64,000 bases of DNA, taken from contig CP021228.1 in the NCBI GenBank assembly GCA_003999685.1, positions 372,001 through 436,000 of the forward strand, given 5' to 3'. The stretch is from Taiwanofungus camphoratus. Lineage: Eukaryota; Basidiomycota; Agaricomycetes; Polyporales; Taiwanofungaceae. The notes under the pieces were generated by a model that was not told the DNA's origin, ran no database searches, and was given only the letters and a program-made list of their open reading frames with translations. Position numbers and translations under genes: made by a program. Each line of letters opens with the position of its first letter. Position 1 is the first letter of the stretch. Positions 1,824 to 41,138 of this stretch are shown here, piece by piece.

Positions 1824-3929
1824 ATGGATCCGAGCCCTGTGCCGATATTCAAATTTCACCTGGATGACACCCTCGGGATATCTTATATAGGTATGCAATC
1901 TTGTTAACTCTGAAAACAGTATTCTGAACTCAATCCATCGGTCAGGAAATCTTGCGGCAGCCATGTGGGTTGTGATTGTTACATCCCGTCGCGAGTTCTG
2001 ATATCAGCGCACAGCTGCTATGGCATCACCACCATCCAAACGTACACGTACTATCGGCGTAGTGGTGACGATGCCCTGTTTCTCAAACTTGTGGTAAGTC
2101 CGACTGCTCATACCTTTTATCCTCTTGAAAAATGACCATCTGTGCATGTGTCAGGTCTTTGTCCTGTGGTAGTTGTGTTCGCAAGCTCCTACTCCGTGTG
2201 TGTCTTGACTACGAGTCTACAGGATATTGGGAAGCCTGCAGATCGCCTTCATTTCGCACGCTTTCTACACTTGTGCGATCACCAATTTCATGAATCCTCC
2301 CGCCCTGATGAGAACTGTATGGTGCGTATTTTCACGCCGACTTGTATGCTTCAGCTGTGTCCTGATCGTTCGCACGCATAGGAGTGTTATGGTGAGTGTT
2401 CTGCTCATTTACTTGTCACGAGGCTCAAGGACTATAGGCTCACGTTGTAGTTTCGGTGAGTTGCGCGTAAAAAGTTGCTGTCTCCTGTTAGACATCCAGT
2501 CCCCTTGCAGGGCGTCAGTGACATCCTTGTCAGAGGGTAAGCATTTGCTTGAAACGCAGCATGGTTGAGAAAGTTATGAAGTGCTTCCCAGATTCTTTTG
2601 TCTTAGAGTTTGGAAGCGTACGTCGTGGTTCCTGCCGTCTACATTGAAGTAGCCGCAATAAAATTTGGTCGGCAGTCAGCGGTAAAAACTGGGTCCTTGC
2701 GGGGCTCATTGTAAGTACTGCCGCCTATTCCTGCCTATATGCATTGACTTTGCCTGCTAGGTGTCGACCTCCCTTGTGGCATTCGGTGAGCTCACTCATA
2801 CACAACTGCTAAACTGTGTCCAACATGTCTACCTTTTACGAATTCTCGCAGCTGGAAACTTGGGTACGTGTCCTGGCTGTAACAGTGGGCGGATCTGATT
2901 GCTAAGCTCCTTTATCAAGCTTTCACCATCAGAGGGTGCATAATTTACTGGTCGTCTTAGAAGTTTTGATTTGACGAACGAAGCTTAGGCTTATGATTGG
3001 CAACTTCCTCAAATTCACGGAAATTTCTGTCAGTGAGATCGACTGATGTCGCGATGTATGGTTTGACCGATAACGTTTCTAGTGGATCGTGTATATGAAT
3101 CTTGCCTGTTGCATCTCCGCCGACATGCTCATCGCGATCTCCTTGTGCACCTCGCTCATGCGACGTCGCACAGGATTCACCAAGTACGTCGCTCGATGCA
3201 GACATTGACGAATTGTTGATCTCACACATGACGCTTAGGACTGACTCCTTGCTTCGCACTCTCATGGTATATACAATCAACACAGGCGCACTTACGGGGT
3301 TAGTTGATAACGTTACTTTCATGTTTCGTGATCTGACTGAGCCTCATGAAGTATCTGCACGATCCTGTGTCTCATTTTTGTGAGTGATATATGCGGTAAA
3401 TTATGATTAAATAGGTGAAAGCTCACCCTTATGCAGTATGCCACTATGCCCCCGAACAATTTCACCTATGTTGCATTTTACTTTGTCCTCCCGCCGTGTG
3501 AGTGCATGCATTCAGCATCGTTATCTGCGCAAGAGACACATTAAATTTGACATGCAAGTGCTCGTGAACGCCTTTTTGGCTACTTTGAACGCGAGGCAAG
3601 CCCTCCGTGAGAATACGATGGGTGGTGTTATATCGATACAGGCCTCGCCACGCGGTGCTGTCGAAATCAGCACCAGGTCCGAGGTGATCCGAACGTATTC
3701 GACTTCGGTATGAATTAGTGTTGCATGAACTATTCAATACCTTGCTAATGTTCGCATGTCGAGTCAGGACACTTTCGGGATGAGGCCAACCTCTATGGGT
3801 GACAGTTCCCAAGTGAGTGAAACCTCAATTGCACTGCGCCTCTTTAACAACATCAATGTGAAGGGGGAGCTCAACGAGTGGAAATCCAAATTTTCACGTT
3901 TGCGAGACTCTGTCGTTGAGGAAGTGTAG
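1824..3929 (+). CDS. DUF6534 multi-pass membrane protein, copy 1
   Basis: Member of the basidiomycete DUF6534 family: seven-helix-like integral membrane proteins of unknown function. The family signature is scattered over many tiny exons. In order I read MDPSPVPIF..DDTLG; YGITTIQTYTYYRRSG; LGSLQIAFISHAFYTCAITNF; VSDILVRG; SGKNWVLAGLI; SADMLIAISLCTSLMRRRTG; TDSLLRTLMVYTINTGALT; YATMPPNNFTYVAFYFVLP; and VNAFLATLNARQALRE. The intron 3711-3768 (GTATGA..GTCAG) skips an early TGA and adds a charged tail that ends at 3929; without it the protein would stop at 3713. The exon between NFMNPPALMRTVW and VSDILVRG is uncertain. Every other family block is present, so I regard the gene as intact. Copies 2 and 3 lie at 8492-10422 and 30583-32636 on the other strand. 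Confidence 0.75.
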
Positions 3930-33821: not shown

Positions 33822-36192
33822 TCAGGCGACCTTGGCGCCACCCCATGCGACCTTTTGTCCGCCTGTTCTAGGTGCTGATGCAGCAGGTGTTGTTTGTGAG
33901 TCAGCTGCTGCATTTGTAGCCGACGACTGTGTTGGTCTAGGGGGGATAGGCAACGGGCTGTTGCGCAGTGCATCAAAGACGCGCTGCGCGTGCTCAGTAT
34001 TCCTGATGAACCACCCAGCGTAGCGACGGCCGACTGTGGACTCGGCGATATGGACCATGTTCTTCAAACGTAAATGAGAACAGAATGTGATGGGGTGAAT
34101 GAATTGAGAATTTACCTCGTCAATCACGAAGTCTAGATCACTTGTTGATATTGTCTGGCCATCCAACAGTCCCTTCTCGTTCTCAACCCGGGAGACGCTC
34201 CTGCTTGCTTGTTTCATAACCATCATCTGCTGCACCATCTCTTCCTCGTCTGCATCCAGGAAGTTCGCAAGTTTACTCGCGTCAAGAGATGTATACAACT
34301 TCAAGAAACTCCGCAACGTTGGCACAGGCGCCTGCGCGCGGACTTCTGAAAGGAAAAGCCCAAGGTGACGCTGGACGGGCTCCATTGGGGGATCCTCGAT
34401 GTAGGCGGTGAGTAATTCAGGATCCTCATATGGCGGAGGGTTGGCCGAAATGAATTTTGGGCAGGCATATAAAAAGAGTTCTTCGAACGCCGGGATACCC
34501 TCCTCTCTAGCAGATCCGGTCAGCTGTGGAGTGACCCATAAGTCCACATCATTCACGCACCCTCGAGACATTTTAGTAAACTGCTCGCCATATCGCTCCT
34601 TGACGATATTTGAAATATTGTCATCCAACCGGCTGGGCGAAAGCGCATTGCAGATGGCGAACAGAGCATACATTCGGTCAGCTGTTTTGTTGATCTGCGA
34701 TGCACTGTGTCAGCTCCGTGGGTTATGAGACATGGAGGACGACATACTTGGTCATATTGGTAACTCCTTGTGTGGTACTGCCGCATCCGCAGGATGAAAT
34801 TCAAAATCGACACAAACGCCCGAATGGCATCTGGATAGCGTCGCAACATGATGTAACAGAAGCCAACATAGTAGTATGTGGTGACATGACAGGCGGTCAC
34901 CCGCGTGAAAGGTGACTGCAAAAGGCTTGTATCAAATTGTTGGTGGACGTGGGAAAATGGGCATACCTTTTGGTTCAGCTCGACATTCTCCATAACTTTC
35001 AACGCCAGGGTGAAGTCACCGAGCAGGCTGTGAACGCGCAAGAGACCAATAATACTGAAGTAGCCGAGCATACGATATAAGGGGCGAACGCCATATTCGC
35101 CAACGATTTCACTGATAACACTCGTTAGGCCCACTCCACGGCGTCGGAAAGAAAAATAAGCGGCGCACGCTATCTCCTCCGTAGACTTTCCTTCTTGCAA
35201 AGCAGTAATATGCTCGTGGATTTTTGACTTTTGGATCAGGGAATACAAGACGTTCAAAACACTGTATGAGCTCCAAACCTGACTGGCATCCGCAAGTAGC
35301 ATAAGCTCTTCGTCGGTCTTGGATTTGACTTTTGACCGCCATACGCAAAAAGACTGGTACTGGTAAATAAATTCGTCGATAATATCCCAGAGCCACTGTT
35401 CTGGCAGCTCGAGCGGGACGGGGCCGTCAGAGTCTAGATCACGAATATTGAAGAGCCCCATCAAAGACAAATCAAATTTCCGGCTCACTCAGCAGGTAAT
35501 TGAAGAGCTCGCAGCTGTTCTCATATGAGTGGAACCGGTCGTCGATGTCGGGCTGCAGGCGGGAATAAACATGGCGATAATAGAGTTCGCGATACAGAAT
35601 GAGAAAAATCTGATCTGTTGAAATGTCAGCACAAGGAAGGCGACGCAGAGATGCATGGGTAGATCCCCGGTTGGCGAGCACAATGATTGTCTACTGGAGT
35701 ATCATTTCTGAAGATCAGGCTTACCATCGTTCACCAATGGTGCGATCACCTCTGCCTCCGGCCATTCCGTCTTCGAGTAAAACTTCTCCGTCAGTCGGTT
35801 CCAGCCGCTCTCATAGGCCACCGTGATCTCTGCTAAATTATTGTCCAAGACAGCCTGATGGAAATGCACGATGAACTGTTCGGCGTAGGACCAGTCATGA
35901 GCGAATTCGCGCCTTGACTGTAAAACTGAAGAACGCACTCTCTTCACAACATCTGGAATTTGGGCAAAGGCAGCTTGTTGAGCCATCTGCTGCTGTACAG
36001 CATGAAGCGTTGCTTCATCTATTCTAGGCTGGACTATTGGAACATGCAGGTTTTATTTCTCCTAGATGTGTCAAGCGAGTTCGTACCGTCGTCATACATC
36101 TGACCATAATTTCCGATTGCCAAGTTGAGATCAACGTCTTGGATATCCTCATCAAGCTCGGCCTCCCACAGAGCTTTTCGTTGTTGAGACAT
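33822..36192 (-). CDS. EIF3L: eIF3 subunit l
   Basis: Subunit l of translation initiation factor 3, part of the PCI/MPN core that organises the 43S complex. The start [20 protein letters not shown] at 36192 is joined by an intron (about 36090-36038) to [20 protein letters not shown]. Family-typical blocks follow: [109 protein letters not shown] and [12 protein letters not shown]. The PCI-type C-terminus includes [21 protein letters not shown] low-complexity Pro/Ala/Thr tail ends [10 protein letters not shown] at 33822. About 640 residues. Several filamentous fungi keep this subunit while budding yeast lacks it. It is divergent from the nucleotidyltransferase gene, whose start is only 267 nt away. 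Confidence 0.95.
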
Positions 36193-36459
36193 ATTGAGAA
36201 ATTAGAGTCTGAAGCTTGAGTCCTGTCAGTGAAGAATGCTTAGAGCTAAAGTACTGTGATCATTGAAATTTACGAGTGAGTGACGCAGACCTCTTCCCAG
36301 TTCCCATCTACCATTCAGGAAGATGCCACGTGCTTTCACTTGCGACGCCGCCGACAAGTCTTATTCCTGCAGTACTCAGTCAAGTCACTTTGACTGCTCA
36401 GAACATCCAGCACACGACGCGGTCGGCATTGGATACAGAAGTCGAGCACCGTGATACGT
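36193..36459. promoter_or_regulatory. compact bidirectional promoter, eIF3l / nucleotidyltransferase
   Basis: Only 267 nt separate the two divergent ATGs, so promoter elements and both 5' leaders are shared or interleaved. A plus-strand frame covers part of it but lacks any family signature. Confidence 0.55.
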
Positions 36460-39400
36460 ATGCGACTCGTTCGCTGGTTCTCCACCATAGTACGACGATC
36501 ACAGCAGCAACTATATGAGCCTTACGTTCGTCCTCTCAACAAGGAGCAGCAAAGAAAGCTTCGCAAGCAGGAATTAAAAGCTGTGTCCAAGCTGCATGCA
36601 AATATTAGGGGCGATCTCGAGTTCCTGCTCTCAGTATGCACGAAATCACTTAATTTACCCTTGTTCTTATTTGCTCTGGACAGAAATCTGAGGCATCGGA
36701 AGAGAGAAAGCAGCAACGTCAAGATGTGCATAAGCAAGTGTCGTCAATAGTCGAGTCTCATTTCGGAGCAGATTTTGAGGTGGAAGACATCAGCCTTTGG
36801 CGTTACTCTCAAGATATTCAGGAAGCTCCCTTCGAGTTCGTGGTTGTGGTACATTGCCCATTGCTTGTTTATGCCGTTTCGTCGCTCATGTACGCCAGGA
36901 CAAGAGGCATAAGCTGGGCCTTTCTGGTGTTGTGGATCCAACCACTCTACCTGGAGTTTATGACCCCGTGTATGTCTATTCCACCCTTACTGGATGGTGT
37001 GCATTGAAGCGAATTTTGGGACAAGTCAGCTGTCAAAAGTGTTCCTGCAAGAAGGTATCTCTGGAGTGTTCTATTCTCGTGAGAAGCTGCAGAAAAATAC
37101 CATGAAGTTGAGATATAAAAATGGCTATGCTATACCGCCTACGCTCGATGTGATCGTGAATTGGCCTAAATACGAGCGACAGCATGCGAAGGAGCTTCTG
37201 TATCCTCCCACGATGCAGGCTACCTGGCCAGTTCCTTTCTATCTTACATTACCGGGTCCGACAATCCTGCCCTTGGTAGATCTCTTGAAGACGTACTGCG
37301 CCGCCGCCCCCACCATCATACCAAAGTTAATATCGGTCTTGTACATCTGGATGCGGTCGCTCGGGATCCATGGATTCATGCCAATGTGCGTGGCTCTTCT
37401 AGTCACCCAATTTCTGCAGGTAAGCATATAATTGTTTCAACTTTTAATAACACTTTTCTTGAGGCCTCAGGGTATCTACTTTGATGTCTTGTCATAATCG
37501 ACAGCAGAACGCTGGTCTGCCGAACCTGCAGGCTCCTCCCCGCGCTTATACTAGTACTGCACCATCGAACGTCTCTCAGTCTGCAGATAAACCTCTTGCG
37601 TGGGTAATACAAGAATATTTGCAGCATCCAAAGCCACCGAAGTGGAGCATGCGACCTTACCAGGTTGACATGAGTTTTATTCGCGAAAGCAAGAAGATCG
37701 GAGGCACACCTATAGCTCACTTGCTGTTGAAGTTTTTTGAGTACGTTATCGGCACTTCTCTTTATTCTTTACCCATCGATTATTTTGGCTTTGATTAATT
37801 GGCATTTCCATAGCCTTTGGAGAGAGGACTCGATTTCTGCCTCCCCCAAAGTTATCTCGGTGCGGGAAGGGCAGCCGATTGCCCGTGAGCAAGAACTCAT
37901 GAAAGATGTATATTCCACAAGCCAAGTCCAGCCCGTTCCAGACGTTGGTGCGATAGAATACCTGGACTTCCAACCTTCCCAATGGCAGTATCAGAATCTT
38001 GTTGTGCAGGACCCATTCGTCTTCACCCATGTTCGTAATGCTGTTTTGACCTTGTCGCTACCGTTCTCACTATTATGTTGCTGCCTTTGTAGAATCATGC
38101 AGAATTCATCTCACGAACGATGTTTGAATATTTCATTGTCTATGCTCGCCGCACTGCTGGCATTCTTAGGCGTGGCCATCCCTTGTCAGATATTTTTGGC
38201 CCACATTTACAGGTCCCGCTACCTTCAGGGTCGGCACCAGAGCGACTACGGGTGCGCCGAGTGGCTTTGGAACATCGACGATCGATTGGGAAACGCCAAC
38301 CCCAATGGGGATTGAGGTCTCAATACCATAGTTCTGCTGCGCAGCATACACCTGCATCGGAATTTGAGGTGTGTGCTTTTTGTACTGGGCCCGTTTACAT
38401 AAATCATCAATGCGATCAGCTTGTTGAGCTTCCTAAGCTTGTTTACAAGAAACGGGCGTTGACGCTACGCCGCATCGGCAGTCTTATAAAGGAGAAGTAT
38501 CACCCGAAATATACAGTCAAGGTATTCGGGAGCACCTGCTATAACGTTGATTCTGTAAACAGCGATATTGATCTTGTCATCATTGTAAGTGGTCTCGATA
38601 AACATCTGCCAAGAACCACTTCATATCGGATGTGCTTCACAGGATCCTGAAAGACCTTCGGGTTTTGCCCCCTTTGTTGGGTCACCAAAATTACCACGTG
38701 AGCTCATCACAATCGATTCATCCCTCTGCTTTGGTAACTGACCCGCACCAATCCTCATGATAGGCATTTACAACATCAGGTAAGCGAGAAGCACGGTAGA
38801 AGTATAGCCTTGTCTAATGTCTGTGCTTTGACAGGTTGCTAGCAAGGATCATCTCCGCTGCTGGATATCTTCATGTGCGACCGGTCCCATTTGCAACTGT
38901 GCCTATAGGTCTGTTGTACGTTGTCTATATCATCGCAATCCCGTACTTATGTAGAGAACACGGTGTTCCCTTTCATAGTGAAGTTTACAGATCCTGTGAC
39001 AGGCCTATCTTGCGACATCAATGTCAATGAGAGACTGGGACTTGTGAATACCGCTATGATCAGACGATACTGTGATTTGGAGCCGGTTTTGCGCCCTTTA
39101 CTTGTGGCTATTAAGGCCTGGGCCAAGCCACTTGGGCTGAACGACCCTTCAGGGTCCAAAGGGTTTCCTACTTTCAGCAGTTACGCCCTGACAATAATGG
39201 CCATTGCGCTATTCCAAGTAAGTGAAAAGTGCAATCATGGTCATTAAAGGTGCATGAAGACGAGTCCACCAATCTTCAGACCACAGGGCTTCTACCTAAC
39301 CTTCAGGCAAATGTAGAAGCAGTACCCAAAACTTTCAAAAGCACATTCTGGCTTCGTAAAAGGAATGATACTTTTGTTCAGTGCGACCTGAGATATTCTC

Positions 39401-40051
39401 TTCGGAAGGATTGGACATCAGAAGAGAACATAACGCCACGCCAAGCGCTCGCGGACTGGTTCTAGTAAGCTGATTTCTCTCCTCAACAACGCGGTCTAAT
39501 ATCTCGCTCTTTGACATGCTCACCTGACAGTTATTGGGGCGCTACTCACGATTGTGGGACGGATGCAGTGAGCCTACGACACGGTGGCATATTACCGAGA
39601 TGGAAATTGACGGAGGATCATTCCTCGTTGGACACTGCCGTTATCAACGGTCTCACGGATGACCGTCATCTTGAAGGCCGCAGTGAGGGGGGCGACTCGC
39701 CCACCTCAGAGGCCGACAGCGGCGGAAGTCCACCTCTTGGTGTCCCGAATGACCCATTTCCATGGCTAGCACCTCTATATGTGGCCGATCCATTCATTCC
39801 TGCGAAGGTGCCTTTCTTAGCCTCACTCAAAGTTTTCCGGTTTTAAGCAGATGATGGGCTTTTCACAGAACCTTACGAGTCGCATTTCACACACTGACAT
39901 CAAACGTTTCCGAGAAGAATGTCTGCGAGCATACCAAATGTTGGAGACGGGAAGCACTATCGAGGAGCTGCTACTCGGACTCAGAAAACGGCCGGCAAAG
40001 CATTATGACTGGATGCACGTCAACCCAACTGTCCCTGAGGATCCAAACTGA
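36460..40051 (+). CDS. terminal nucleotidyltransferase with two NTase-like halves
   Basis: Cid1/TUTase-type enzyme predicted to add nucleotides to RNA 3' ends. The C-terminal half (about 38400-40051) is complete: VKVFGSTCYNVDSVNSDIDL carries the GS motif and two catalytic aspartates, LSCDINVNERLGLVNTAMIR the third. WAKPLGLNDPSGSKGF and TFSSYALTIMAIALF follow, and the PAP-associated domain includes PLYVADPFI and ISHTDIKRFREECLRAYQML. The N-terminal half (36700-38130) has related central and PAP-associated blocks (KLISVLYIWMRSLGIHGFMP, YLDFQPSQWQYQNLVVQDPF) but no GS..DxD motif that I can find. A continuous frame from 38090 to 38590 joins the halves and includes CAFC..C. The start MRLVRWFSTIVRRSQQQLYE at 36460 is Arg-rich, possibly a mitochondrial presequence. 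At least ten introns, some not fixed exactly. About 950 residues. Confidence 0.8.
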
Positions 40052-40501: not shown

Positions 40502-41138
40502 ATGTCAGACATCAGACCACCGTTCACTGCAGAGACTGCTCTTCAGAAGGTGAAGGCAGCTCAACGCCTCTGGAACACGCGCGATCCGTCAAAGGTCGTG
40601 CTCGCATACACTGTACGTAGGCCTGTCCCCACTTGTCTGGGTTCACGATGTATGTGTGATGTAGCCGGACACAATCTGGAGGAACAGGGACCAGTTCATG
40701 AGGGGGAGAGATGAGGTCATCCAGTTTTTGACCAAAAAATGGGAGAAGGAGAATGGATACAGGTTACAGAAGGAGCTGTTCACGTTTAGGGACAACAAGA
40801 TCGCTGTGCAGGTGCGTATATTCTATACGGGAGCAGAGCAGTGGATACAGGAGCTCACGGTTGTTCCACTTAGTTCTTCTATGAATGGTACGAGGTGAAG
40901 GCAGATGGAAAGAAGCAGTGGTATAGATGCTATGGCTTGGAGGTGCTTTCCATGGATGCTCAGAGTGATCTTACTGTTGAATACAACCCCTTTTCAGGAT
41001 TGGACGTTTGCAGAAGACGGACTCATGCGAAAGCGTCAGATGAGCGGGAACGACGTACCAATCAGTGAAGAAGAAAGATGGTTTAAGGATACTGTCCTTG
41101 ACGAAGACACAGTAGAGATTTCGGAGAAGCATCTGTGA
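40502..41138 (+). CDS. DUF1348 / NTF2-like (SnoaL-fold) protein
   Basis: Small cone-shaped NTF2-like fold protein of the DUF1348 family, found in bacteria and fungi; no defined reaction. The chosen start is [20 protein letters not shown]; an in-frame extension lacks similarity. Exons then read [84 protein letters not shown] and [20 protein letters not shown], ending VEISEKHL at 41138. Three introns are supported by frame: about 40611-40663, 40812-40870 and 40946-40998. The family signatures (A-Y-T-x-D-x-x-W-R-N-R near the start and E-x-W-Y in the middle) are present. About 155 residues, the usual length. Confidence 0.9.

Follow-up and report, generated by a model that had tools for sequence, protein, structure and literature searches.

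A predicted two-half terminal nucleotidyltransferase in Taiwanofungus camphoratus, probably derived by duplication and fusion

A gene of Taiwanofungus camphoratus, a fungus of the Polyporales, is predicted to encode a non-canonical terminal nucleotidyltransferase (TENT; Cid1/Trf4/TUT type) in which two homologous nucleotidyltransferase (NTase) halves follow one another in a single chain. It lies in a 64,000-nucleotide stretch of contig CP021228.1 (assembly GCA_003999685.1, positions 372,001 to 436,000), referred to as the window, whose coordinates are used throughout. As read from frames, stops and splice signals, the coding region extends on the + strand from ATG to stop (36460..40051) and has 908 codons in 15 exons: 36460-36633, 36684-36848, 36899-36969, 37026-37419, 37505-37740, 37814-38030, 38093-38368, 38420-38584, 38643-38697, 38764-38779, 38835-38908, 38979-39217, 39280-39464, 39531-39807 and 39869-40051. 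All 14 introns of the final model are GT-AG and 50-85 nt long, and the exons form a single frame with a single stop. A first-pass annotation of the same DNA had placed the start at 36460 and the stop at 40051 with an uninterrupted frame across the junction of the halves, and reading of the frames confirms this.

The gene model was compared with the output of an unvalidated dynamic-programming gene finder written for the window and kept blind to homology, so that homology would not steer its choice of splice sites. Codon scores were taken from 3530 codons in 10 long, unverified open frames elsewhere in the window, and splice weights were set by hand from fungal consensus sites. A single chain runs from 36460 through the junction (38.1-38.4 kb) at all five settings of the finder. 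The strictest (intron penalty 4) gives one gene starting at 36460 and places 12 of the 14 introns of the final model with both ends correct; of the other two, one has the correct donor and another acceptor (39218-39306 versus the final 39218-39279), and the last, at 39808, is missed, which moves the gene end to 39846. With the intron penalty at zero, intron 39808-39868 and the stop at 40051 are recovered at two of three start penalties. The penalty-free settings also introduce extra introns, which were rejected for the final model, and the laxest cuts the gene at 38981. Two further candidate introns were dropped: a 40-nt one (39808-39847), too short and with a poor acceptor, was replaced by 39808-39868, and a 51-nt one (37420-37470) leads, by eye, into a stop.

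The N-half is taken here as residues 1-456 and the C-half as residues 512-908, both encoded on the + strand. The C-half comprises a catalytic palm and central domain (38420..39217, residues 512-694), with G548, S549, D560, D562 and D627, and a PAP-associated part (39280..40051) with the motifs SLRHGG and DPFIPAKN. The N-half has a pseudo-palm and central domain (36684..37419, residues 59-268), reading ISLWRYSQDIQEAPFEFVVVD where the C-half has FGSTCYNVDSVNSDIDLVIID, and then a second central-domain part with a PAP-associated part (37505..38203, residues 269-456), in which the corresponding motifs are SVREG and DPFVFTHN. Local alignment of the halves scores 71, a value reached in none of 500 shuffles (35.8 +/- 4.7), and blastp aligns them over 77 columns with an E of 7e-5. 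Identity is about 21% (84 identical residues in 406 aligned columns).

The fungus's own genome (33.2 Mb, 15 contigs) was searched for relatives. Three further TENT loci were found, each modelled with a single half: C12, which is Cid1/TUT4-like, and C3 and C1, which are Trf4-like by our reading. A profile of the C-half and these three relatives scores 27.1 bits on the N-half (maximum 7.2 in 2000 shuffles), and a profile of the relatives without the C-half scores 14.9 bits against a shuffle maximum of 5.0. By these sequence comparisons the two halves are homologous. A search of the same genome with the N-half alone recovered nothing beyond its own gene, where all seven matches fall. In Pfam, the C-half matches MTPAP-like_central (the central palm domain) with an E of 1.2e-24 and PAP_assoc with an E of 0.00073, the latter at 20.2 bits, below the cut-off of 22.6, in a 406-residue version built with an earlier acceptor. 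That acceptor choice added 7 residues to the C-half queries for Pfam and the PDB; these queries, and the one used on viral contigs, start with two residues (DQ) now assigned to an intron. NCBIfam gave no match to the 908-residue model, and a 194-residue segment of the C-half, run against viral contigs, gave three pattern matches and no relative.

The halves differ at the catalytic positions. In three of three alignments the C-half has G548, S549, D560, D562 and D627, and it is apparently catalytically active, judging from these motifs. The N-half counterparts of the first four are S, L, P and E, again in all three alignments, so that G-S is replaced by S-L and D-x-D by P-x-E in a gapless register; the third carboxylate position is Tyr in two of the three. 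The first-pass annotation had proposed two NTase halves in one chain, the second with a GS motif and three catalytic aspartates, the first with central and PAP-associated blocks and without a GS..DxD signature. Each element of that description is upheld, by the shuffle-tested similarity of the halves, by the one-chain gene model, by a probable PAP-associated part with a DPF motif in either half, and by the residues just listed.

Intron positions are also shared between the halves. Five of the six N-half introns, all on the + strand, have a C-half intron at the same place: 36849..36898 (phase 0, VVV|D) with 38585-38642 (VII|D), 36970..37025 (phase 2, YDP|V) with 38780-38834 (YNI|R), 37420..37504 (phase 0, FLQ|Q) with 39218-39279 (LFQ|T), 37741..37813 (phase 2, KFF|D) with 39465-39530 (DWF|Y), and 38031..38092 (phase 0, FTH|N) with 39808-39868 (PAK|N). 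These five agree in column and phase in nine of nine multiple alignments (three row sets, each in three MAFFT modes). With two plain pairwise alignments, each shows such agreement for four of the six, for which the chance is about 1e-8 (hypergeometric); the 37741-37813/39465-39530 pair is unmatched in both. The remaining N-half intron (36634..36683, phase 0) pairs with 38369-38419 only on an ungapped reading of the adjoining stretch, under which each lies 35 residues ahead of the F in the FGS position (residues 59-93 and 512-546); the two share a column in none of 11 alignments. C-half introns at 38698 and 38909 have no N-half counterpart. Among the relatives, C1 has one of the five firm sites, and C12 and C3 have none. 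The C1 intron (L030 2596-2657, in the Trf4-like model) has the column and phase of the 37420/39218 site, scores only -2.6, and is possibly an old family intron. The shared positions suggest that the gene most likely arose by head-to-tail duplication of a single-half TENT gene that already had introns.

The junction exon is 38093..38368 (+ strand). It opens with the last N-half helix, NHAEFISRTMFEYFIVYARRTAGIL, which aligns in register with the C-half segment NLTSRISHTDIKRFREECLRAYQML, and continues in open frame through a linker of 55 residues (457-511) that is basic; its sole in-frame ATG, at 38120, sits within the helix. As modelled, the exon is direct evidence of fusion. It is followed by a probable in-frame, stop-free intron of 51 nt (38369..38419, + strand) that carries CxxC codons and would code for VCAFCTGPVYINHQCDQ. 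This segment starts with GTGTGT and ends with CAG, has a coding score of -0.19 per codon (+0.02 and +0.06 in the flanking exon parts), and is spliced out at all five homology-blind settings. It agrees in phase with the first N-half intron, and in position under the ungapped reading only. We regard an intron here as probable, and the CxxC is therefore probably absent from the protein; the CxxC-bearing linker of the first-pass annotation is not supported. The CxxC was also considered as a zinc knuckle and rejected: the consensus of that motif is CX2CX4HX4C, and the translated spacing would be C-x2-C-x7-H-x-C. Pfam, queried with a sequence that contained the CxxC, detected no zinc family in either half up to an E of 10.

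Duplication and fusion are supported by the homology of the halves, by where their introns lie and by the junction exon. The gene is thus likely to be a fungal TENT that arose by head-to-tail duplication and fusion, with the second copy tailing RNA and the first serving as a non-catalytic arm. The ancestor would have been a TENT gene with introns and a single half, whose two copies, in head-to-tail order, came to share one reading frame. The second copy, having kept the GS motif and the metal-binding carboxylates, most likely tails RNA at the 3' end, as its motifs suggest. The first has lost the GS motif together with two of the carboxylates, the first and the second, while probably keeping its fold, and by analogy with the pseudo-NTase of TUT4 and TUT7 it is most likely an RNA- or partner-holding or regulatory arm. 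A study of TUT7 describes a pseudo-NTase domain and an active NTase domain that touch and form a C-shape, and a region linking them that becomes ordered when pre-let-7 is bound (PMC11402785).

Several observations weigh against this interpretation. The N-half matches PAP_assoc below the cut-off (E 0.023), and alone it finds weak matches in the PDB (best E 0.17). When the whole genome was searched exon by exon, PAP_assoc was found in three places, none of them inside the two-half gene, and MTPAP-like_central was found in the two-half gene in the C-half only (two of eight matches). AlphaFold applied to a lone N-half exon (37027-37419) gave a mean predicted local distance difference test score of 48.8, which is uninformative. 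The N-half has Asp at the third carboxylate position in one of the three alignments. The two halves pair weakly in a phylogenetic tree (69/74), where the pairing joins two long branches. The splice sites are predicted, and homology guided the choice of acceptors 39279 and 39868; the introns of the relatives were likewise placed by the unvalidated finder, and the C12 model skips the DPF exon.

The order of the halves, inactive before active, is that of the animal terminal uridylyltransferases TUT4 and TUT7 (TENT3A/B), and the gene might be their fungal orthologue, retained from an inactive-active fusion that predates the animal-fungal split. The PDB search with the C-half (39 sequences at E up to 0.1) lends this some support, with TUT7 (67 bits) and TUT4 (64 bits) among the best matches, alongside URT1 (72), GLD2 (67), CutA (57.5) and Cid1 (37). 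The tree argues the other way. It has 10 rows, in which TUT and URT1 are represented by matched stretches rather than full domains and fungal two-half proteins by this one alone, and in it the TUT4/7 N-modules join their own catalytic modules (93/94), as they also do when the N-half (92/92) or the C-half (83/90) is left out. The approximately unbiased (AU) test on these 10 rows rejects a clade that unites the C-half with the catalytic modules of TUT4/7 (p 0.005) and disfavours one that unites it with C12 (p 0.026). A clade of the N-half with the TUT4/7 N-modules is not rejected (p 0.10), which counts in favour of orthology. These tests are weakened because the groups were named after the first tree was seen. 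In TUT4 and TUT7 the pseudo-half has retained G, S and the first Asp, with Asn and Lys/Arg standing at the two remaining positions; the loss of different residues in the two pseudo-halves suggests inactivation by different routes. The nearest gene to both TUT4 (204.6 bits) and Cid1 (191.2 bits) in the fungus's own genome is the single-half C12 gene, and, as noted, Pfam finds no zinc finger in the two-half protein. Orthology is improbable on this evidence, and the likeness to TUT4/7 is likely convergent, a matter of layout and probably not of descent.

Two adjacent single-half genes might also have been joined only in the gene model, which is built on genomic sequence alone. The N-half frame stops at 38315 if intron 38031-38092 is not removed, and the laxest setting of the finder does split the region, though at 38981, away from the junction. 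The same intron nevertheless matches the place of 39808-39868 in nine of nine alignments, exon 38093-38368 joins the last N-half helix to the linker with its only ATG inside that helix, and one chain crosses 38.1-38.4 kb at all five settings; separate genes are accordingly very improbable. Chance fusion of two different TENT genes, rather than of a duplicate pair, is equally hard to credit: it would suit the identity of about 21% over 406 columns and the weak 69/74 pairing in the tree, and is opposed by the agreement, in all nine alignments, of five of the six N-half introns with C-half ones in both column and phase, at sites of which the relatives, in unvalidated models, have none, none and one.

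The nucleotide that the protein adds may be suggested by one position. Cid1 His336 selects UTP, and the same position steers nucleotide choice: CutA has Arg557 there, and its replacement by Ala leads to more incorporation of A and by His to more incorporation of U (PMC7498324). TUT4, TUT7 and URT1 have His at this position. In the two-half protein it is Lys848 in the active C-half (three of three alignments), with His kept in the inactive N-half; under the rejected acceptor 39847 the C-half residue would be Gln, likewise not His. Lys848 in place of His makes strict uridylylation unlikely, and a strictly U-adding enzyme is thus an unlikely reading of the sequence; a tail containing A or C is more likely than one of pure U. 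In the Lys848 column C1 has His, as does C12 in one alignment, from which nothing is drawn because the alignment is loose there and the C12 row ends before it. By eye, the Cid1/TUT4-like C12 gene (L029 ~3513-3545) reads DPFETDFNVAR, with Phe at the position of the His of terminal uridylyltransferases; its gene model leaves out most of this exon.

The N-terminus bears on where such tailing may take place. The first 20 codons (36460..36519, + strand), MRLVRWFSTIVRRSQQQLYE, resemble a mitochondrial presequence, with 4 K/R and 1 D/E. The maximal hydrophobic moment over 11 residues in this segment is 0.95, a value reached in 0.96% of 5000 shuffles; the modelled starts of the three relatives give 0.32, 0.27 and 0.68. 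With 6 K/R and 2 D/E, the first 30 residues, which the first-pass annotation had called Arg-rich and possibly mitochondrial-targeting, are basic. The N-terminus thus looks like a mitochondrial presequence, which would make mitochondrial RNA the likeliest target, a proposal that we consider evenly balanced. Yeast mitochondrial mRNAs are described as being without poly(A) tails (PMC5509036). A more specific proposal is that of an independently evolved counterpart of TUT4/7, with an inactive half that would hold mitochondrial RNA in place while the active half adds mixed tails or tails other than U; taken as a whole it is tentative and rather unlikely.

Should the proposed origin be correct, the inactive-then-active NTase layout would have arisen at least twice, and an inactive copy in cis would be a workable RNA-positioning arm for a tailing enzyme. 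No zinc fingers were seen in the protein by Pfam, and for this reason the fungal pseudo-half could reveal what such a half does alone. The shared introns provide a mark for placing the duplication on the fungal tree, and a mitochondrial location, if true, would raise RNA 3' tailing in fungal mitochondria as a question.

Upstream of the two-half gene, on the - strand (33822-36192), lies a gene with a Pfam Paf67 match over 33822-34673 (E 3e-54), the family of eIF3 subunit L; the piece at 35702-36052 has no Pfam match. The likely start of this gene, the ATG at 36192, is head to head with the two-half gene at a distance of 267 bases. Two upstream ATGs precede 36460 and open short frames. One has 7 codons (36236-36259); the other has 43 (36323-36454) and stops 5 bases ahead of 36460. 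Downstream, on the + strand, a gene model at 40502-40898 has a DUF1348 match (E 1.4e-38).

No description of a fungal TENT with tandem NTase halves was recognised in the literature searched, which is weak evidence of absence given its thin coverage of subscription journals; many annotated fungal proteomes may well contain such a protein that has drawn no comment. The Cid1- and Trf4-type fungal TENTs belong to the same family as the two-half protein. Those of its own genome differ in being modelled with a single half, and four of the five firm shared intron sites occur in none of them. Another basidiomycete TENT is Rde4 of Cryptococcus neoformans, a terminal nucleotidyltransferase needed for production of small interfering RNA (PMC6643885); no link between it and the two-half protein is claimed. 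CutA, a C/U-tagging nucleotidyltransferase of Aspergillus, is likewise a fungal TENT with a basic residue at the position of Cid1 His336 (Arg557; PMC7498324) and matches the C-half at 57.5 bits; its solved part is one half, and the residue is Arg where the two-half protein has Lys. The best PDB match of the C-half at 72 bits, plant UTP:RNA uridylyltransferase 1 (URT1), also has one half in its solved catalytic part and differs in having His at the UTP-selecting position. In comparison with TUT4 and TUT7, the protein is shorter (908 residues versus 1495 in the TUT7 PDB chain), is without a detected zinc finger, has Lys for the UTP-selecting His, and has lost from its pseudo-half the GS motif and first Asp that TUT4/7 keep. 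The resemblance to TUT4/TUT7 put forward in the first-pass annotation therefore survives in part: kinship seems limited to the layout, in view of the tree, the AU test (p 0.005) and Lys848, and the CxxC linker is not supported. Like TUT4 and TUT7, the fungal protein has, by its sequence, an inactive NTase and PAP-associated half first and an apparently active half second in one chain, and its C-half is similar to theirs in sequence.

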